A stretch of DNA of 64,000 nucleotides from an uncultured Thioclava sp. (GTDB taxonomy: Bacteria > Pseudomonadota > Alphaproteobacteria > Rhodobacterales > Rhodobacteraceae), in contig NZ_CAJYBT010000007.1 in the NCBI RefSeq assembly GCF_913064665.1, forward strand, positions 1 through 64,000. The letters are read 5' to 3'. Each line of letters opens with the position of its first letter. Positions within the stretch are counted from its first letter, which is position 1. Under the pieces are notes generated by a model. That model was not told where the DNA came from. It saw only the letters and a program-made list of their open reading frames with translations, and ran no database searches. Below, piece by piece: positions 6,107-60,464 of the stretch. Made by a program: the position numbers and the translations under genes.

Positions 6107-6330
6107 TTGACACGTGGCGCTGGGCGCGGCATTTCGACAGCACTTCGGTTCCGCGCAAGCGGATGAAAAGGGAACCCGGTGCGGCGCAGCTTGCGTTCAT
6201 TCCGGGGCTGCCCCCGCAACTGTGAGCGGTGAGTGACGGCTGACTGAGCCACTGGGTCTATGATCCGGGAAGGCCAGCCCGAGCGACGACCCGCAAGCCA
6301 GGAGACCTGCCGAGGCGCTCATCCTTTCGA
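6107..6330 (+). promoter_or_regulatory. Cobalamin riboswitch with promoter-like TTGACA
   Basis: The aptamer spans about 6140-6316. It shows AAAAGGGAACCCGGTG (around 6166-6181), GCTGCCCCCGCAACTGT (6207-6223), the CACTGG and GGGAAGGC segments, and the B12 box AGCCAGGAGACCTGCC (6297-6312). TTGACA at 6107-6112 could be the -35 element of its promoter. Downstream, ATCCTTTCG (6321-6329) is complementary, with one bulge, to the btuB ribosome-binding site CGAAGGAT (6453-6460), which suggests that bound cobalamin blocks translation initiation (inference). It controls the btuB-type operon that follows. Confidence 0.95.
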
Positions 6331-6466: not shown

Positions 6467-8281
6467 ATGACCTACACCCGTTTCACCGCAACTCTTCTGC
6501 TTGGAACCGCCCTTGTCAGCCCGGCATGGGCGCAAGACAATCAACCCTTCGCCCTTGATGAGATCGTGATCTATTACGGCGCGCTTGAGCCGCGCTCGAG
6601 CGATAAGACCGGGCAATCGGTCACCGTGATTTCCAAGGCTGAAATGGAGCGCGCCGGCGAAACCCGACTGGCCGATCTGATTGCACAGACGCCGGGCGTG
6701 GGCATTCTGGCGCGCGGCCCGATGGGCGCACAGACCGGGTTTTCGATCCGCGGTGTGTCGCAAAACTACGTCAAGGTGCTGGTGGATGGGATCGATGTGT
6801 CCGACCCCTCGGCACCGCAAGTCCTGCCCGATCTCGGTCGCTTCAACAGCTTGAACTATGACCGGGTCGAGATCCTGCGCGGCTCGCAATCGGCGGTCTA
6901 TGGCGGTCAGGCAGTGGCAGGCGTGATCAATCTTGAAACGCCGCGCCCGACTAAGGACGGGATCACCCAGCGCGTCGCTTTGGAGCTGGGGTCTTATCAA
7001 ACGGCCAATGCCGCCTATAGTTTTGGGTGGAAACAGGGCGATGATGAATTGGCGGTGCAGGTGTCCAAGATCTACACGGCCGGATATTCGGCGGCGGATG
7101 CGGCAAACGGCAACACCGAAAAAGACGGTTACCGTGCCAACCGGCTTAGCCTGCGTGCGCAAAAGCGCCTTAGCGAGAACTTGCTCGTCGGGATCACCGG
7201 GTTTGCGCAAAACGACAGGGGCGAGTTCGATGACGGTTTTTCCACGCCGCCCGTCGATGACAATGAATTCACGCTGCACAAGGAACGCGGCGCGCGTGTG
7301 TTCGCGCAATTTACTACGGGGCGGTTCGATCACGAGATCGGGCTGACCTATTACACCACCTCGCGCTATTATCCGATCTATGACTACGGCTATAGCGGCA
7401 AGCGTCGCAAGATTGACTGGAAAGCCGCGACCGATCTGGGGGCGGGCCGTTTGACAATCGGGGCCGATCGCAAGCTCGAATCCTACACCGGCACCTATGT
7501 CACGGGGCAGGTGCTGACGTCGGATACCGGGGTGTTTGCGGAATATGCGGTTGATCCGATCAAGAATGTCAGCGTCGTTGCCTCTGCGCGCCATGATACG
7601 CATTCGCAATTTGGCGGGTTCAACACCGGGCGGTTGGGTGTGACCTGGCAAGCCAGTGCGGACACGCTGGTGCGTGGCTCTGTCGGGAACGGTTTCCGCG
7701 CGCCCTCTGGCTATGAGATGTTTGGCTATGGCGGCTCCACCAGCCTCAAGCCGGAAAAATCGATGAGCTATGATCTGGGGCTGGAGCGCAAATTCGGCAA
7801 GCAAACCCTGACCGCCACGCTGTTTCGGATCGAAGTCGACAACCTGATCGACTACGCGGCGGGCAGCTATTACCAGACCTCAGGCAAAGCCACGCGCCAA
7901 GGTCTGGAGCTGGGTCTGAAAGGGGCGATCAATGCCAAGATCGACTACCAGATCGGCTATACCTATCTGGACTGGAAGAACCCGGCAGGCCTATCGGCGG
8001 GCTCGACATGGAACACATCCTTTGGGCGCAACACGCTGACTGCGGGACTAAGCGCGAAGCTGAGTGACACCTTCACGGCAGGCGCGGATCTGCGTTTTGT
8101 CACAGATCGCCAGAGCCTGCCGGATTACGCGGTGGCCAATGCGCAGATCAGCTACGATTTTGGGGATGGCAAACAGGCCTATCTGCGCATCGAGAACCTG
8201 TTCAACGCGCAATACGAGCTATGGCCGGGTTTTGGCACCTCGGATCGCGCTGCCTATGTTGGGGTGCGTGCGACGTTTTGA
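6467..8281 (+). CDS. btuB: BtuB-type TonB-dependent outer-membrane cobalamin receptor
   Basis: A 604-residue protein with a signal peptide (cleavage near SPAWAQ-D), a TonB-box-like segment just after it (ALDEIVIY), a plug domain (about 40-160: QSVTVISKAEMERAG, SIRGVSQNYVKVLVDGI, VEILRGSQSAVYGGQAVAGVINL) and a 22-strand barrel ending in the Phe-terminated strand VGVRATF. The ATG at 6467 is preferred because AAGGA lies 8-9 bases upstream. The upstream cobalamin riboswitch and the following periplasmic-binding, permease and ATPase genes make cobalamin or a related corrinoid the likely substrate. Acts with TonB-ExbBD, which is not in this window. Confidence 0.9.
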   Translation: MTYTRFTATLLLGTALVSPAWAQDNQPFALDEIVIYYGALEPRSSDKTGQSVTVISKAEMERAGETRLADLIAQTPGVGILARGPMGAQTGFSIRGVSQNYVKVLVDGIDVSDPSAPQVLPDLGRFNSLNYDRVEILRGSQSAVYGGQAVAGVINLETPRPTKDGITQRVALELGSYQTANAAYSFGWKQGDDELAVQVSKIYTAGYSAADAANGNTEKDGYRANRLSLRAQKRLSENLLVGITGFAQNDRGEFDDGFSTPPVDDNEFTLHKERGARVFAQFTTGRFDHEIGLTYYTTSRYYPIYDYGYSGKRRKIDWKAATDLGAGRLTIGADRKLESYTGTYVTGQVLTSDTGVFAEYAVDPIKNVSVVASARHDTHSQFGGFNTGRLGVTWQASADTLVRGSVGNGFRAPSGYEMFGYGGSTSLKPEKSMSYDLGLERKFGKQTLTATLFRIEVDNLIDYAAGSYYQTSGKATRQGLELGLKGAINAKIDYQIGYTYLDWKNPAGLSAGSTWNTSFGRNTLTAGLSAKLSDTFTAGADLRFVTDRQSLPDYAVANAQISYDFGDGKQAYLRIENLFNAQYELWPGFGTSDRAAYVGVRATF

Positions 8282-37398: not shown

Positions 37399-37790
37399 CC
37401 GGCCGTTCCCTTCTTGAATAGGCTCAAGCTAACAGAAATTGTTATGCAATGTATATACGTTGCATCGACATATTGTGCCGCGCGCGAACGCATAGCCGTT
37501 TCAGGCTTAGCTGCGTTTGACCTTGCTCGTCTGGTGTCCCTTACCTTTCTTGTCACGATTGCCCTTGCGGCCAAATCGGGTGCGTCCGGACTTACTCGGC
37601 CCGCGATGACGAGGGGGGAAGGACAGCAAAGTCGCATCGCGCTCGCGCGAAGGTGTTGGTGCGAGAGCGGCCTTGGCGCTGACATTTCTTTACAGGATTT
37701 TTCCGGCGCGCTAACCCGAATAGGCGAATTTCACCGGTTCACACCATGGCCGAGTTGGCGCCGGATCAAACAATTTGTGAGATATAAATC
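37399..37790. other. Intergenic stretch between RHH operon and exported-protein gene
   Basis: It holds the palindrome (37444-37465) and AT-rich promoter-like bases near 37430-37480. On the minus strand 37507-37689 there is a 61-codon open frame ending RKGNRDKKGKGHQTSKVKRS, basic like the tail of an RNA-binding protein, but with no usable start codon; probably a remnant. Near 37780 the AT-rich sequence is the likely promoter of the next gene. Confidence 0.4.
37444..37465. promoter_or_regulatory. Palindromic operator candidate
   Basis: ATGCAA-(T/C)-GTATATAC-(G/A)-TTGCAT: 22 bases, symmetric at all but one base pair. It lies upstream of the minus-strand RHH gene, where autorepression would be expected, and is markedly AT-rich against its surroundings. 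Confidence 0.6.
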
Positions 37791-52509: not shown

Positions 52510-53583
52510 CTAGCTATCCTCTTGCTTCGCCAGCTTTGTTTCGTTCTTGGCATCATTCGCGCGCAGACCCAATGTGACCATGCGCTGCATCGCGTCGGGC
52601 GCCAGCGGGCGGCTCGGCGGCGTTAACAGCAGCCGCCCAAAAACCGCGCGATAGGGTTCCTCCAGCATCAATTGCGCGAATCTCTCCATGCGCCAGGCGA
52701 CCGCACGCGCATGAAGGGCCGCGAGTTCCGGGTCGGCCATCAATTCCGTGCGCAACGCCCCCGCAGGCCCCGCATAGCGCGCCGCAGAGGTGTCGCGATC
52801 GTCGCAGAAATTGCGCTCCACCCAATAAGACAGATCAAAAGCCCCGGACTCACGATTGGCCCGGCCGCGATCACATTTCACGATATAACTTTCCATCGCG
52901 CCCAAGGCGTAGTGATTGAGCTGCACCAACGCGTAAGGATCGCTCCCCAGCGGCGTAAAGAGCTTCTGGCGCTGATAGAGCGGGGGCAATTTGCGTCCCG
53001 ACCCATCCACCCAAAGCGCGGATTTCAGCCGCGCGCTATTGGGCGAACGCGGCCGATGCACCCCCAACTTGCCATAGGTGCCATCATTGGCAAACAGGGT
53101 CTTGAACATCGACGCGCGCCACGGCCAAAGCATACCAACAGGTGCGGCGCGGGTGAATTGCTCGGTGATAGGCGCATCCTCAAACGCGACCTTGCTGCAA
53201 TTGCCAAAAAGCCGCCATGTCATCGCAATCGCCGTGGCCGGTGCGCAGGCTGAAATCAATGCGCCCAACGTGCCATCGCCAGTCTTGATCGTAACGAACT
53301 CATCAACATCCAGCACTGCGATCCAATCGGCACTGGCCTTCAGCGGATGGCGGTCAGCGGCTTTGAGCGCATCCCATTGCGGCCCCGCGTTCCAAGGGCC
53401 GGGATTGGGTTGATGCGTGAGCCAGCCTAACTGCGCGAGACGATCCAGCATCTCGGCCGTGCCGTCCGAGCAATCATTTGAGAAGACAAGGAAATCTGTA
53501 AACCCGACAGTGCGGTGATGGGCCAGCCATTCCAATAGGAAAGCCGCTTCGTTCTTGACGGAGGTGATGGCAAGGGCGCGCAT
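52510..53583 (-). CDS. Glycosyltransferase family 2 (Glyco_tranf_2_4 type)
   Basis: A 357-residue protein starting at ATG 53583. The GT domain opens with ITSVKNEAAFLLEWLAHHR (about 7-25) and has the metal-binding DxD in IAVLDVDEFVTI. Then TWRLFGNCSKVAFED and HRPRSPNS. It shares these motifs with the larger glycosyltransferase upstream; the two genes are probably ancient duplicates. No transmembrane segment. Substrate unknown, probably a surface glycan. Confidence 0.75.
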   Translation of the reverse strand: MRALAITSVKNEAAFLLEWLAHHRTVGFTDFLVFSNDCSDGTAEMLDRLAQLGWLTHQPNPGPWNAGPQWDALKAADRHPLKASADWIAVLDVDEFVTIKTGDGTLGALISACAPATAIAMTWRLFGNCSKVAFEDAPITEQFTRAAPVGMLWPWRASMFKTLFANDGTYGKLGVHRPRSPNSARLKSALWVDGSGRKLPPLYQRQKLFTPLGSDPYALVQLNHYALGAMESYIVKCDRGRANRESGAFDLSYWVERNFCDDRDTSAARYAGPAGALRTELMADPELAALHARAVAWRMERFAQLMLEEPYRAVFGRLLLTPPSRPLAPDAMQRMVTLGLRANDAKNETKLAKQEDS

Positions 53584-53660
53584 GCGCTCAAGATGCCCGC
53601 CCCCATCTGCGCGCGCAAGCGCGAAAGGCGCGCCGTCGCGTTCTTGGCCTGGTTCGGAGT

Positions 53661-53693
53661 GCCTCCGGCGGGAGTATTTAGCGCTAGATGAAA
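53661..53693 (+). repeat. Short hairpin repeat, copy D
   Basis: GCCTCCGGCGGGAGTATTT followed by AGCGCTAGATGAAA; first subtype. It faces copy E. Confidence 0.75.
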
Positions 53694-53706
53694 CCCAAGA
53701 TCCACA

Positions 53707-53742
53707 TTTCATCTAGCCCCTAAATACTCCCCGCGGAGCGTC
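53707..53742 (-). repeat. Short hairpin repeat, copy E (inverted)
   Basis: On the minus strand GGACGCTCCGCGGGGAGTAT, then GGGGCTAGATGAAA; second subtype. Copies D and E point towards each other, with 13 bases between, in the gap between the glycosyltransferase genes. Confidence 0.75.
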
Positions 53743-53768: not shown

Positions 53769-56084
53769 TTAGTGTGCCGCCTCATCGGGCGGATCCACGG
53801 TGAAAAAGAAATCGCGCGGGAGGTCGCGCAGATGCAGATCCTCCGGGATCACATGGGGCCCGACATTGAACACCGCAGAGCCGAAATGCGTCAGCAGCGT
53901 TGAGAGTTTTTCAAAGCGTTGCGAGGTGAGCGTGGCGTAAAATTCTGCCTGATCGGGGCGCGCCATCAGTTCCGCTATTTTGGCGCGGTGGCAGGCAACG
54001 CTATGGGCATGTGCGGCGGCGATTTCGGGGTCAGCCATCATCCGGTCGAACGCGGCCTTGGCGGCGGGCAGCATGCGCTGGATCGAGGTTTCGAGCTGCG
54101 CATTGTGGTTCATGCGAAACCAGTAATTCAGCCCTTGGTCCCGATCGACATGGTTCACCCGGCCGCGGTCGCGTTTCACCAGAAAACTTTCCGCCGAGCG
54201 CACCGCGTAATGATTGAGCTGGACCCAATCATAGCCGTAAGTGTCCAGCGTTGAGCGCCAGCCATTGCGAAACATCTCACGCGGCATCGGCTTGCCTGAC
54301 CCGTTGAGCCATTTCACCTGATCCCACAGGTCGGGCACCAACCCCTTGGGGCGATGCACACCCAGCTTTTTATACAGATCGACATTGCGAAACAGTGTCT
54401 TGAACCCCCACGCCTGATGGGGTTTGCGCACGACTTCGGGGGCGCAGCGGGTGAATTGTTCGGTGATAAAGCGATCCTCGAAATGATGCACGTCATCATT
54501 GCCAAAGAGCCGCCATGTCAGCGAAATCATATTCGCTTCGCCCAACGCCTTATACAGTGCCGGCAGGGTGCCATCACCGATCTTGATATCGATGAACTCA
54601 TCCACATCCATGCAGATCGACCAGCCAGCATTCTGGATCATCGGCTCGTTTTCCGCTGCGGCGAGGGCCGCGTGCTGGGGCTTCATATCCACCATCGTGC
54701 GAAACGGGTTTTCACGATGCGCCACGATCCCCTTGCGTTCCAGCAGGTCCAGCATTGTGTCGGTGCCGTCGGTGCAATCATTGGTGTAGATCAGGAAATC
54801 ATCGACCCCGATCGCGCGGTGATAGGCCAGCCATTCTAGAATGAAGGGCCCTTCGTTTTTCATCGTGGTGATGATCGCGGTGCGCCCGGCATGGAGCGCC
54901 TTTTTCGGGGCCGCCTTGATTTTGGACACGGGCGGGCGGATCGGCTTATGGCCCCAGACCTGCTTGGATAGCTCCAACAGCTGGGCATCTTCGACCAATG
55001 AGGTCTTGGGCACCAGTTCCGCCGCCGACACGCCCGGCACACGAATCGCCATCGCGCGCCAGAAGCCGTAGATCAGCCCCGGATCGGGCTTGGCATAGCT
55101 GACGCGCAGCAGCCGCCAGGTGCTTTCGAGACCCGCTTTGGCAGGCGCGCATCCCCAGCGCGCAATGCCGCGGCGCGCATCGAAGGGGCGGCAGATGTGA
55201 TCGGGGAAACGCTCGGACGCGCCCTCACGCACGCGCCAAGGATAAATCCGGTGACCCGCCAGCAGGATCACCCCGTTTTCGGCGGCCTGCGCGGCCTCAA
55301 ACGCGGTGGGGCTGGTGTGATCATGCGGGCGCAGCAGGTCGGTGACATCGAGGATCAACACCGCCGCCGCCTTGGCAAAAAAGCGCCATTTGACGATCTC
55401 AAACACCAGCGCCTCGCCCAAGGGGGCGCGCCAGGGATCGGGGGCGGGCGGCTCCATCCGGTCTTTGCCCGGTGCGTCGGGAGCCAAAAAGACGTGTGAT
55501 TCTGGGCCTTGATCGGGCTTGCCCAACGGCAAGTCACATTCCAGCAGCACGACCGGCAAATCCAGCTCGCGCAGATCCATCCCCTCTTGCAGCGCTTTGG
55601 CAAAATCAGCGGGGCTGCCAGCAGGGCTATCGGGCGGGGCGCGGTTCAAGATCACCGCCCCCGTTGCCCCATGGTGATCGTGATGCCAGCTTAGCCAATC
55701 CAGCACGGTTTCGACGCTTTCCTCAAGGCGCTGGCCAAACAGGCAGTTGCGCCCCTCAAAAATATCCCAATCGGGCGCGGCGGGGTTGAGCGGCATCAGC
55801 ACCTGAGCCCCGTCATCGCCGCGCAGCGCAATCTGGGTGGGGCCGGGGGCGTCGGGGGCCAGCACGGTCATCGTGGCTCCTGCGACACCGCGCGCCTCGA
55901 TCAGACGGGCGGCACCGGCGATTGGCGTGTCGATGAACTGCTCGGGGGCTGAGGGGCGGGCGAAAAAGGCGCGCAGCTGCGGGGTGCCATCTTGCATCCA
56001 TCCCACCGTATCCAGCAGCGCAGGACCAGTCCCGATGCCAGCCTGTGAGTGCATCTTTCGCCGGATCACGCGGTGCTCGCCCAT
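53769..56084 (-). CDS. Large two-domain protein with C-terminal glycosyltransferase
   Basis: A 771-residue protein. ATG 56084 has AGAGG close upstream; other ATGs at 56120 and 56126 lack it. The first ~400 residues hold no motif I can name; they contain a DIFEGRNCLFGQRLEE block and several Asp/His-rich stretches. The C-terminal ~330 residues are a GT2-like domain: IITTMKNEGPFILEWLAYHR, CMDVDEFIDI (DxD) and TWRLFGNDDVHHFEDRFITE, with VDRDQGLNYWF later. No signal or membrane helix. It lies upstream of the smaller related glycosyltransferase on the same strand, so the pair may act on one glycan. Confidence 0.75.
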   Translation of the reverse strand: MGEHRVIRRKMHSQAGIGTGPALLDTVGWMQDGTPQLRAFFARPSAPEQFIDTPIAGAARLIEARGVAGATMTVLAPDAPGPTQIALRGDDGAQVLMPLNPAAPDWDIFEGRNCLFGQRLEESVETVLDWLSWHHDHHGATGAVILNRAPPDSPAGSPADFAKALQEGMDLRELDLPVVLLECDLPLGKPDQGPESHVFLAPDAPGKDRMEPPAPDPWRAPLGEALVFEIVKWRFFAKAAAVLILDVTDLLRPHDHTSPTAFEAAQAAENGVILLAGHRIYPWRVREGASERFPDHICRPFDARRGIARWGCAPAKAGLESTWRLLRVSYAKPDPGLIYGFWRAMAIRVPGVSAAELVPKTSLVEDAQLLELSKQVWGHKPIRPPVSKIKAAPKKALHAGRTAIITTMKNEGPFILEWLAYHRAIGVDDFLIYTNDCTDGTDTMLDLLERKGIVAHRENPFRTMVDMKPQHAALAAAENEPMIQNAGWSICMDVDEFIDIKIGDGTLPALYKALGEANMISLTWRLFGNDDVHHFEDRFITEQFTRCAPEVVRKPHQAWGFKTLFRNVDLYKKLGVHRPKGLVPDLWDQVKWLNGSGKPMPREMFRNGWRSTLDTYGYDWVQLNHYAVRSAESFLVKRDRGRVNHVDRDQGLNYWFRMNHNAQLETSIQRMLPAAKAAFDRMMADPEIAAAHAHSVACHRAKIAELMARPDQAEFYATLTSQRFEKLSTLLTHFGSAVFNVGPHVIPEDLHLRDLPRDFFFTVDPPDEAAH

Positions 56085-56457
56085 AAAAACCTCTTGCTCG
56101 ACTTTATGCTGTCCTAACATGCGCATGTGCTGTCGCGAAGCCCGCGCGTGGGGGTGTGGGGCATGTGTTTCATGTGAATTTGGCAGCGCCGCGGTCAAGA
56201 CGGCGGCAGAATAAAGGTATCTCTGCGCAGCTTGCGGGACGAGTGCGACTGGCACTCCAGCCCGGCGCAAGTTTGCGGGCGTCAAAGGCGCGTGGCGCAA
56301 GGCAGGAACTGCGACATTGCGCCGCGCTCTTGGCGAGAATTGCGCCGCGTTTCCATGGATTTGCAAGAAAACTGGGGAAATCTCACGCAGGGCTCACTCC
56401 ACTCTGTCAGAAACGTGACCCGCGGAACAGTTTGTCGCAGTTTCATCCGCGTGGTTT
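56085..56457. other. Non-coding stretch upstream of the FnrL-type site
   Basis: No gene is seen on either strand with a plausible start and composition. It holds the promoter region for the minus-strand glycosyltransferase; a CATGCGCATG palindrome lies near 56123. Confidence 0.4.
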
Positions 56458-56471
56458 TTGACATAAATCAA
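56458..56471 (+). promoter_or_regulatory. FNR/FnrL box
   Basis: TTGACATAAATCAA fits the FNR consensus TTGAY-N4-RTCAA perfectly. TATCAA (56494-56499) lies downstream as the -10 element; the predicted start at 56506-56507 puts the box centre at -41.5 to -42.5, as in class II activated promoters. Confidence 0.8.
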
Positions 56472-56505
56472 TCTCAGCACAGAGATACTCCCATATCAAT
56501 CAGTG

Positions 56506-56628
56506 CATCGGGTCCTAGATCTCCCAATCGCGGCTTCGGCCAATTGGACCCGATCAGAGGATAGACGTTCTCCCTTGTCTTTCCCCTAAATGCGCCGCGG
56601 GTCTCCCTCCCGCGGCGCTTTAATTTTT
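56506..56628 (+). ncRNA. Candidate FnrL-activated trans-acting small RNA
   Basis: About 122 bases. 5' hairpin: ATCGGGTCC (56507-56515) pairs with GGACCCGAT (56546-56554), with an inner GGC-TTCG-GCC tetraloop stem. Then a single-stranded C/U-rich linker (about 56555-56591). 3' terminator: GCGCCGCGGG (56592-56601) and CCCGCGGCGC (56609-56618), a perfect 10-bp stem, followed by TTTAATTTTT. TCTCCC occurs three times, at 56520, 56569 and 56602, in the hairpin loop, the linker and the terminator loop; it can pair with GGGAG-type ribosome-binding sites. No open frame is present. Activation under low oxygen is inferred from the FNR box. Confidence 0.72.
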
Positions 56629-57148: not shown

Positions 57149-57691
57149 TTAGCGCGTCGAGCCGATCATCATCACCATTTGGCGGCCCTCAAGACGGGGC
57201 ATCGATTCAACCTTGCCCAACTCGCCTACATCGTCGCGCACGCGGTTGAGCAGCTCAAGGCCAAGGTTCTGGTGTGCCATCTCGCGGCCCCGGAAGCGCA
57301 GGGTGACTTTCACCTTGTCGCCATTCTCGAGGAACTTGATCACGTTGCGCATTTTCACTTCGTAATCATGCACATCGGTACCGGGCCGGAACTTGACCTC
57401 TTTGATCTCGATGATCTTTTGCTTTTTGCGGGCTTCGGCTTCGCGCTTTTGCTGTTCATATTTGAACTTGCCAAAATCCATGATTTTGCAGACCGGCGGG
57501 TCGGCATTGGGAGAGATTTCCACCAAGTCGAGACCGGCCTCTTCGGCCATGCTCATCGCTTCGCGCGGCGTCACAACGCCGACATTCTCGCCCTCTGCCC
57601 CAATCAGGCGAATTTCGTTCGAACGGATACGGCCATTGACACGGGGTCCGGTGTCGCGGGTCGGCGGGGCGTTATGCGGTCTGCGGGCTAT
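57149..57691 (-). CDS. infC: Translation initiation factor IF-3, AUA start codon
   Basis: A 180-residue IF-3. Only the part from residue 40 has an ATG (57574), but the family N-terminal domain continues upstream in frame: [20 protein letters not shown], then [19 protein letters not shown]. It starts at ATA 57691-57689 with AAGGATTCCC upstream. Non-AUG starts (AUU, AUA, AUC) are the basis of IF-3 autoregulation in other bacteria. The C-terminal domain has [14 protein letters not shown] and [16 protein letters not shown]-3 prevents 30S-50S joining and checks the start codon. Confidence 0.92.
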
Positions 57692-58863: not shown

Positions 58864-58931
58864 AGCGAGGGTGCGCGCAGGAACGTGTCAGGCTTGGCGC
58901 GCGTTGTCCTATGACAGCAAAGGAGAGCCCC

Positions 58932-59612
58932 ATGACACATGACCTAACCTTGCAATCGCGCGCATCCGTCACCCACGACACCCATCACCTACGTTTCAAG
59001 CGCCCGAAAGACCTGTCGTGCACTCCCGGTCAGGCGGTCGATCTGAGCTTGATGCGCGAGGGTTGGAGCGATCAGGCCCGCCCGTTCACGCCCGTTAATG
59101 GCAGTGAGGGCGACACGCTGGATTTCATTATCAAAAGCTATCCTGACCATGAGGGCGTCACGGCGCAAATCGCGACGCTGCAGCCGGGCGAAAAGGTGCA
59201 AATCTCGGACCCGTGGGGCGCTATTCATGATGCGGGCCCCGGCACGTTCATTGCGGGCGGCGCAGGGATCACGCCGTTCATCGCAATCCTGCGCGCGCGC
59301 CTGTTGCGTGAGGGGGCATTGGGCGGGTCGACCCTGATTTTCTCCAACAAAACCGAGGCCGACATCATCTTGCGCAAAGAGTTCGAGGCGATGGAGGGGC
59401 TGGAAACGATCTGGCTTGTCACGGATGAGGCCAATCCGGGGCCGGGTGTGCAAAACGAAAAGATTGACCGCCATTTCCTGCGCAATCACGCAACCGCCGC
59501 CAATGCGCCGTTCTATATCTGCGGTCCGGATGCGATGGTCGATGATATCGAGGAAATGTTGATTTCTTTCGGCATCGCCAAGTCAGATATCATTCGCGAG
59601 GATTTCAGCTAA
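58932..59612 (+). CDS. FAD/NAD(P)H flavodoxin-reductase-like oxidoreductase
   Basis: A 226-residue protein of the ferredoxin-NADP reductase superfamily, without a ferredoxin domain. FAD-binding R-x-Y/F-[ST] form in QARPFTPVNG (about 48-57), nucleotide-binding GGAGITPFIAI (about 111-121) and a late FYICGPDAMVDDIEE. ATG 58932 has AAGGAG upstream. Physiological partner unknown. It ends 33 bases from the convergent Fpr gene, another member of the superfamily, but the two differ clearly in sequence. Confidence 0.8.
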   Translation: MTHDLTLQSRASVTHDTHHLRFKRPKDLSCTPGQAVDLSLMREGWSDQARPFTPVNGSEGDTLDFIIKSYPDHEGVTAQIATLQPGEKVQISDPWGAIHDAGPGTFIAGGAGITPFIAILRARLLREGALGGSTLIFSNKTEADIILRKEFEAMEGLETIWLVTDEANPGPGVQNEKIDRHFLRNHATAANAPFYICGPDAMVDDIEEMLISFGIAKSDIIREDFS

Positions 59613-59645: not shown

Positions 59646-60464
59646 CTAGATGCCCTCGCCGACGAATGCCTTTTCGACCACATATTCGCGCGGCTCGGAA
59701 TTGGCGCCTTCGCGCAGTCCGAACCCTTCAAGCACGGCCATCACGTCCTTGTTGAACGCAAGGCTGCCACAGACCATTGCGCGGTCGGTGGCCGGGTCCA
59801 TCGGCGCGATGCCGAGATCCTTGAACACCTTGCCGTTCTCCAAGTTCGTGGTGATGCGGCCCATATGGGGGAATTCTTCGCGCGTGGTGGTGGGGTAGTA
59901 TTTCAACTTGCCCTCGACCATCTCGCCGATCAGCTCGTCATTGACGAGGTTCTCAACCAGTTGGCGACCATATTCCAGCTCTTCGATGGTGCGGCAGGTA
60001 TGCATCATCACCACCTCGTCGAATTTCTCATAAGTCTCGGGGTCGCGCATCAGCGAGGCAAAGGGCGCAATCCCGGTGCCAGTGGCCAGAAACCACACCC
60101 GCTTGCCCGGCAGTAGCGCGTCATGCACCAGCGTGCCCACGGGTTTGGGGCGCAGGATGACCTCGTCCCCCGGCTGGATATGTTGCAGCTTTGAGGTCAG
60201 CGGCCCATCGGGCACCTTGATCGAATAAAACTCCAGCTCTTCGTCCCAGTTGGGCGAGGCGATGGAATAGGCGCGCAGCAAGGGTTTGCCATTATCGCCC
60301 ATCAGCCCGATCATCACGAACTCACCCGAGCGAAAGCGCAAGCTTTGCGGGCGGCTCACGCGAAAGGAAAACAGCCGGTCGGTCCAATGGGTGACCTCGG
60401 TCACGGTCTGGGCATCGGGCAGGGTCTTGACCTTGGGAATCTCGTTCACGGCACTCTCGTTCAT
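59646..60464 (-). CDS. fpr: Ferredoxin--NADP(+) reductase
   Basis: A 272-residue bacterial-type Fpr. FAD motif LLRAYSIASPNWDEELEFYS, a FATGTGIAPF-type LATGTGIAPFASLMRDPE (about 114-131), the MVCGSLAFNKDV pyridine-nucleotide segment and a C-terminal EYVVEKAFVGEGI with the terminal extension typical of the class. It exchanges electrons between NADPH and ferredoxin or flavodoxin, and could supply the neighbouring cytochrome P450 (inference) or respond to oxidative stress. Confidence 0.92.
   Translation of the reverse strand: MNESAVNEIPKVKTLPDAQTVTEVTHWTDRLFSFRVSRPQSLRFRSGEFVMIGLMGDNGKPLLRAYSIASPNWDEELEFYSIKVPDGPLTSKLQHIQPGDEVILRPKPVGTLVHDALLPGKRVWFLATGTGIAPFASLMRDPETYEKFDEVVMMHTCRTIEELEYGRQLVENLVNDELIGEMVEGKLKYYPTTTREEFPHMGRITTNLENGKVFKDLGIAPMDPATDRAMVCGSLAFNKDVMAVLEGFGLREGANSEPREYVVEKAFVGEGI

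Follow-up and report, generated by a model that had tools for sequence, protein, structure and literature searches.

A probable small regulatory RNA with an FNR box and three exposed CUCCC motifs in Thioclava, Rhodobacter capsulatus and relatives

The window, i.e. the whole 64-kb stretch of Thioclava DNA that was analysed, contains a predicted small RNA between two glycosyltransferase genes and infC. The features of this region are listed below with the evidence for each in brackets; counts out of 36 refer to the distinct sequences of the RNA described further on, and R1 is one of the two models used in the searches.

52510-53712 and 53769-56366, minus strand: two adjacent glycosyltransferase genes (PF13704, PF01697)
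56433..56439, plus strand: upstream element TGTCGCA, candidate RegA/PrrA site (conservation; fit to the RegR box consensus)
56458..56471, plus strand: FNR/FnrL box TTGACATAAATCAA, centre at -41.5 with +1 at 56506 (direct reading; relatives)
56494..56499, plus strand: -10 hexamer TATCAA (direct reading)
56506..56628, plus strand: predicted small RNA of about 123 nt, start predicted, unmapped (fold, z -5.68; R1 model match)
56507..56554, plus strand: 5' hairpin with a 9-bp outer stem, a large loop holding motif 1 and a UUCG inner stem (fold, covariation)
56507-56515/56546-56554, plus strand: strands of the outer stem of the 5' hairpin (fold)
56520..56525, plus strand: UCUCCC motif 1, in loop 1 (CUCCC here in 36/36; aligns with the first ar14 anti-SD position)
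56532-56541, plus strand: UUCG inner stem of the 5' hairpin (fold)
56563..56580, plus strand: small middle hairpin, stem AGACG/UGUCU, strands 56563-56567/56576-56580 (fold, covariation)
56569..56574, plus strand: UCUCCC motif 2, in the middle loop (CUCCC here in 36/36; aligns with the second ar14 anti-SD position)
56592..56618, plus strand: intrinsic terminator with a perfect 10-bp stem and a 7-nt loop, strands 56592-56601/56609-56618 (fold, covariation)
56602..56607, plus strand: UCUCCC motif 3, in the terminator loop (CUCCC here in 34/36; aligns with the third ar14 anti-SD position)
56619..56628, plus strand: U tract of the terminator, TTTAATTTTT, after the stem (direct reading)
57149..57574, minus strand: infC (translation initiation factor IF-3), convergent neighbour and landmark outside the RNA (Pfam PF00707/PF05198)

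A pattern scan of named genome contigs, restricted to linker and terminator bases, gave 28 loci. They come from Thioclava species, Rhodobacter capsulatus (two records), R. viridis, R. aestuarii and R. maris, the remainder being from Sinirhodobacter, Phaeovulum veldkampii, Defluviimonas, Sedimentimonas, Pseudothioclava and metagenome bins. Within the fetched stretches infC was found at 24 of these loci and is convergent and downstream of the RNA at 23; in R. maris (L050) it is present in a different arrangement, and it was not found within the stretch fetched for L052, L060, L062 and L063. On the other side, the glycosyltransferase frame is listed from 56366, probably too far upstream; by eye, the likelier start is an ATG near 56084. 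Elsewhere in the 64 kb, a cobalamin riboswitch at 6129-6328 (138 bits) is the sole Rfam match over cut-off, and two FAD/NAD-binding oxidoreductases with the same domain pair are adjacent and convergent (58911-59612, plus strand; 59646-60464, minus strand).

The minimum free energy of the predicted RNA is -53.3 kcal/mol versus -33.9 ± 3.4 kcal/mol in 200 shuffles (z -5.7), none of which was as stable. The UUCG hairpin, the perfect 10-bp terminator and the U tract that an earlier note, made from the sequence, had described are found where it put them, both by direct reading and in the fold. The note had also seen no coding frame, and this holds: the transcript contains a single ATG, at the base of the terminator (56590), and TTG at 56544 and 56575; the mechanical ORFs that run into the RNA from outside, e.g. 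56232-56564 (TTG start), give no indication of being genes.

Conservation was followed at several levels. Within the genus Thioclava the RNA is present in 15 of 16 genomes (own included), 12 of the copies by close similarity and three (G004, G008, G010) in diverged form; the sixteenth genome, G011, had no convincing copy (best 18.7 bits). Among 345 genomes of the family, nearly one per genus, R1 found a match at E ≤0.001 in 11, eight of them outside the R1 alignment (G000, G003 and G031 were in it). R1 also matched in 40 of 40 chosen sources, which gave 36 distinct sequences, window and one R. capsulatus included, after removal of four duplicate rows. In R1 the terminator helix is one column off (25.6% paired) and the middle helices are doubtful (36.8% and 61.0%). 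Covariation was recounted on a corrected structure, from which a second model, R2, was built; the R1 searches stand, since the sequence carried the matches. On the corrected structure, 98.2% of the cells in the 36 rows are paired and 13 of 23 pairs have changed on both sides; none of 500 shuffles was as high on any of five measures, and displacing the partner by 1-3 columns brings pairing down to 38-52%. Helix 1 is paired in 100% of cells over its seven counted pairs, six of which show two-sided changes, in an alignment which was fitted to the helix-1 structure and favours this helix. Helix 3, the middle hairpin, is paired in 94.4% of cells with two-sided changes in all three counted pairs. 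For helix 4, the terminator, the 98.3% of paired cells is independent of the fit, because this helix was not correctly modelled at the alignment stage. R2 brought no new strong member, its 11 strongest family matches being already among the loci, genomes or records of the training alignment, and the fair count is the 11 of 345 obtained with R1. Outside the family there were matches in 4 of 385 class genomes besides the window genome (a set that includes a few of the family) at 27-35 bits, with at best six of the eight bases of an FNR box.

The box itself is independent evidence, because it is part of neither the scan pattern nor the models, with the reservation that the similarity search from which pattern and models were designed did include it. 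It stands upstream at all 28 named loci, with all eight half-site bases at 27. Among the 36 distinct sequences (window included), 34 have eight and all have at least seven of these bases, and in every one the centre is 40.5-42.5 nt ahead of the first model base. This is the class-II distance, and direct reading confirms the placing of the box at 56458-56471 with its centre at -41.5, and of TATCAA as -10 hexamer, in the earlier note. Even the relative accepted at the lowest R1 score (28.1 bits) has the box, and TA-containing hexamers are seen by eye near the -10 position in many relatives. The 64 kb contain two 8-of-8 TTGAN6TCAA sites, the second one at 37414. FnrL is encoded in the window genome (NCBIfam NF045989, 458 bits versus a cut-off of 300).

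A second conserved element, TGTCGCA, is found 24-25 nt upstream of the FNR box in 32 of the 36 sequences. Its columns are identical in 30-32 of the 36, against at most 24 for the columns between it and the box. Scored against the RegR/RegA box consensus, the region reaches a mean of 8.6 out of 11 (7.1 in shuffles), and 27 of the 36 sequences fit at 8 or more of the 11 positions, versus 25% of shuffles. In Rhodobacter relatives the element is longer, reading GCGACATTTTGGCG on the other strand, and the fit to this consensus goes up to 10/11. TGTCGCA may be a RegA/PrrA site. Most Thioclava copies also keep GATACTCCCATATCA (56484-56498) between the FNR box and the start; it adds one ACTCCC in the untranscribed part and was not seen in the other genera among the 28 named loci.

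The locus is unique in one respect: nowhere else in the 64 kb do three UCUCCC fall within 123 nt of one strand. Three or more copies were obtained in 0.02% of 5000 dinucleotide shuffles (1/5000). The three motifs lie where the earlier note placed them. They are almost entirely unpaired (mean unpaired probabilities 0.86, 1.00 and 1.00), apart from the first base of motif 1, which is for the most part paired (0.27). What did not stand is the hexamer: judged from the alignment, the conserved core is CUCCC and not UCUCCC, loop 3 reading CCUCCC in 24 of the 36 distinct sequences. CUCCC terminator loops are also present in weak model matches that are devoid of the other motifs, and part of the conservation in loop 3 may be a property of terminators as such. 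In L036, L048, L049, L054 and others, the inner loop of hairpin 1 bears an extra CTCCC, i.e. a fourth motif. With the box in 36/36, helices 98.2% paired and CUCCC in 36, 36 and 34 of the 36 sequences, the conservation of box, stem and motifs in related genomes on which the earlier note had staked its reading is what the comparison gave.

From this comparative study, we conclude that the product of this locus is most likely a regulatory small RNA, conserved in Thioclava, R. capsulatus and relatives and induced at low oxygen. We consider it quite likely that the RNA is free-standing and trans-acting, activated by FnrL and equipped with repeated SD-blocking sites, its expression, FnrL dependence, pairing and targets being what we infer. 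At low oxygen, FnrL with its [4Fe-4S] cluster would bind at -41.5 and activate transcription, in class-II fashion, from about 56506, and redox control may be added by a RegA/PrrA-like response regulator at TGTCGCA. The transcript of about 123 nt would stop at its own terminator and show three unpaired CUCCC, in the 5', middle and terminator loops. These, probably with Hfq (which is encoded in the window genome), would pair with Shine-Dalgarno sequences of the AGGGAG type in selected mRNAs. Translation of these mRNAs would fall, and oxygen-linked metabolism would thereby be reduced post-transcriptionally. The FNR-controlled anti-SD regulator proposed in the earlier note is partly supported, by the conserved structured RNA, the class-II box in 36/36, the presence of FnrL and Hfq and the invariant CUCCC of loops 1 and 2; its UCUCCC core is replaced by CUCCC. 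R. capsulatus is a classic model of oxygen control, and an FNR-box RNA there bears on indirect repression by FnrL through an RNA, in the way FNR acts via FnrS. If the proposal is true, the SD-blocking RNAs of one cell fall into two sets with motifs of different length, the first under an oxygen-type promoter and the second of the CcsR kind.

One rival reading takes the RNA for a divergent branch of the ar14/CcsR ('cuckoo') anti-SD family which gained an FNR promoter, and not for an independent family. A scan with 4227 Rfam families gave no match over cut-off at the RNA, in line with the earlier note, which could place it in no named family. The best sub-threshold match was ar14 (RF02344), end to end, at 30.6 bits (E 0.00018 for a 146-nt search), about half the gathering cut-off of 58.8; R. 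capsulatus scored 30.4 bits, and in both the three anti-SD positions coincide with the three CUCCC motifs. Matches to ar14 at E ≤1 are found in 90 of 100 family genomes and exceed the cut-off in 15. The ar14/NfeR1 RNAs of Sinorhizobium and relatives likewise have three hairpins, each with an unpaired C-rich motif complementary to the SD and the last one in the terminator. They are defined by an ultraconserved CCUCCUCCC in unpaired regions (PMC10746234), which is in 0 of the 36 distinct sequences, where the motif is the shorter CUCCC. Given its score and its motif, the two features that define the family, the RNA is not filed as an ar14 member. NfeR1 is moreover under LsrB/NtrC control (PMC10746234), whereas our RNA has an FNR box. 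The CcsR1-4 arrays of the same organism family also have hairpins with CUCCC loops; unlike the RNA, with its own FNR-type promoter beside infC, they are tandem and lie behind a DUF1127 gene, and those of R. sphaeroides arise by processing of a 3' UTR (PMC8307010). The window genome has a separate tandem array of this CcsR/ar14 type (G000:C9:12766-13304, L020), in which about ten CUCCUCCUCCC motifs follow a small protein, DUF1127-like by eye; no 8-of-8 FNR box was found within the fetched 3.1 kb, and TGTCGCA is also seen in one spacer. The array RNAs of this genome carry CCUCCUCCCUGA, loop 1 of many relatives of our RNA is AUCUCCCUGA, and the core common to the two is CUCCCUGA, which speaks for kinship, as does the weak R2 match (37.6 bits) to L104, a three-hairpin UCCUCCC RNA devoid of an FNR box. 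Against kinship, the R1 search of the window genome at E ≤10 missed this array and returned only the window and a 13.7-bit match elsewhere, no second strong copy being found, and such a layout with a short motif can arise by convergence. We regard a common origin with ar14/CcsR as possible, though on the doubtful side. The likeness to CcsR/NfeR1-type RNAs claimed by the earlier note is borne out by the layout, with its three hairpins and exposed motifs, and by analogy with that layout the RNA probably works like NfeR1/CcsR.

The three exposed copies of one short motif, together with the weak evidence for conserved individual targets, would also suit a decoy which titrates an RNA-binding protein or Hfq through its C-rich loops rather than pairing with mRNAs. 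We know of no candidate protein for such a role. NfeR1, the closest characterised layout, silences mRNAs by aSD pairing through three redundant motifs (PMC10746234), and we hold a decoy to be unlikely. That the stretch merely serves a neighbouring gene, infC or the divergent glycosyltransferase, as its terminator or attenuator is very improbable. Its place between two genes and its strong terminator speak for this, but its own promoter elements keep a fixed spacing, infC runs towards it on the opposite strand, the gene upstream is divergent, and no glycosyltransferase was found beside the RNA in the R. capsulatus record L053. That the RNA is the local orthologue of PcrZ is hardly credible. PcrZ is induced at low oxygen and depends on PrrA and FnrL (PMC8307010, PMC8139620), control by FnrL being called possibly indirect (PMC8139620), and our RNA has a clear FNR box and the conserved TGTCGCA, a candidate RegA/PrrA site by its fit to the consensus. 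Yet no relation in sequence, motif or locus was found, and the comparison with PcrZ made in the earlier note fails by sequence. The stretch at the published PcrZ position (taken from PMC6238624, genome G090 being taken as R. sphaeroides 2.4.1) has no CUCCC and folds differently. R. sphaeroides 2.4.1 gave no R1 match above 12.8 bits and no match to an FNR-CTCCC pattern, and its infC neighbourhood differs. PcrZ orthology was accordingly rejected; the RNA could be a functional analogue of PcrZ through shared targets.

R. sphaeroides is the source of all the low-oxygen Rhodobacter small RNAs in the literature cited here. Two of them with FnrL sites, RSs0019 and RSs2461, were called functionally uncharacterised in 2014 (PMC4263372), and RSs0019 has since been studied as Pos19 (PMC5036791). 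A homologue hidden at R. sphaeroides ChIP sites was looked for in nine regions (L087-L095) of the published CrpK list, some common to FnrL and three (L092, L094, L095) marked CrpK-only. Eight of the nine have an 8-of-8 FNR box (L094 has none), and at none of them is a 7- or 8-base box followed by at least two CTCCC within the next 190 nt, so the candidate was dropped. An 8-of-8 FNR box some 50 nt past the published end of PcrZ (L096, G090:C4 about 2566006) may serve a separate nearby transcript. FnrS has a size near 120 nt and a motif and a structure other than those of our RNA; in the scans against the 4227 Rfam families, FnrS is not among the matches listed. FnrS of enterobacteria is an FNR-activated small RNA (PMC4263372); in our RNA the box and its spacing are present in 36/36 sequences, and activation is predicted.

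In the accessible part of the openly available full-text literature, no description of the RNA was found. The transcriptome work on R. capsulatus is said to contain many uncharacterised sRNAs (PMC11089165), so the RNA may already be numbered in a published table. The R. capsulatus box sequence is absent from the main text of the FnrL ChIP paper on that species (PMC4634722).

Candidate targets were sought as AGGGAGA N3-9 ATG. The window genome has 50 such matches and R. capsulatus 54, where the reversed pattern yields 5 and 0; with so many sites, the RNA could touch many genes. The matches are covered by 49 and 53 stretches, with one frame kept per stretch and frames of fewer than 20 residues omitted (L171; L185, L192, L210, L218). 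Only two orthologous pairs, etfB and rpsH (named by eye), are common to the two lists, and no conserved target set emerged from the 50 and 54 matches. etfB was read in 30 chosen genomes, of which G031 was dropped (no etfB match); second copies in G244, G264 and G085 were left out. AGGGAGA precedes the etfB start in 11 of the 14 RNA-bearing genomes versus 3 of the 15 without the RNA, and AGGGAG in 11 of 14 versus 4 of 15. In G143 the motif is absent from both etfB copies, and R. sphaeroides, without the RNA, nevertheless has AGGGAGA before etfB. These counts are a hint only, because etfB was chosen on account of its being shared by the first two genomes and kinship was left uncorrected; they make etfB a weak candidate target.

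The pattern of an FNR box followed after 108-138 nt by CTCCCTCYCGC was found in 15 of 394 family genomes, and the reversed pattern once. Ten of the 15 belong to the core family and five (G063, G258, G261, G337, G388) have other hairpins. R2 matched at E 0.01 in 52 of the 394 genomes in all, the weak matches being a mixture. Nineteen weak R2 loci were examined (L098-L116, with L105 and L111 truncated): the 160 nt upstream contain an 8-of-8 FNR box in 11, at 40.5-47.5 nt in five of these. Among these five, L099, L106 and L109 have CUCCC also outside the terminator, and L101 and L108 in the terminator only; L112-L116 have neither an 8-of-8 upstream box nor CTCCC. This distribution suggests that FNR-driven CUCCC RNAs arose repeatedly or diverge fast. 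Rhodobacteraceae might, as we tentatively propose with some doubt, possess fast-evolving, oxygen-switched, multi-site SD-blocking RNAs in which the distance of the FNR box is fixed, the hairpins vary and CUCCC stays, separate from the CCUCCUCCC arrays of the same cells. Such a class would be the Rhodobacteraceae counterpart of FnrS, with the window RNA as its best conserved branch and L109, L106, L099, L101, L108 and G388 as further branches with unlike hairpins. In G388 (L267, G388:C30, about 6688-7277) several CUCCC hairpins follow the FNR box, an oxygen-type promoter on an array-like RNA.
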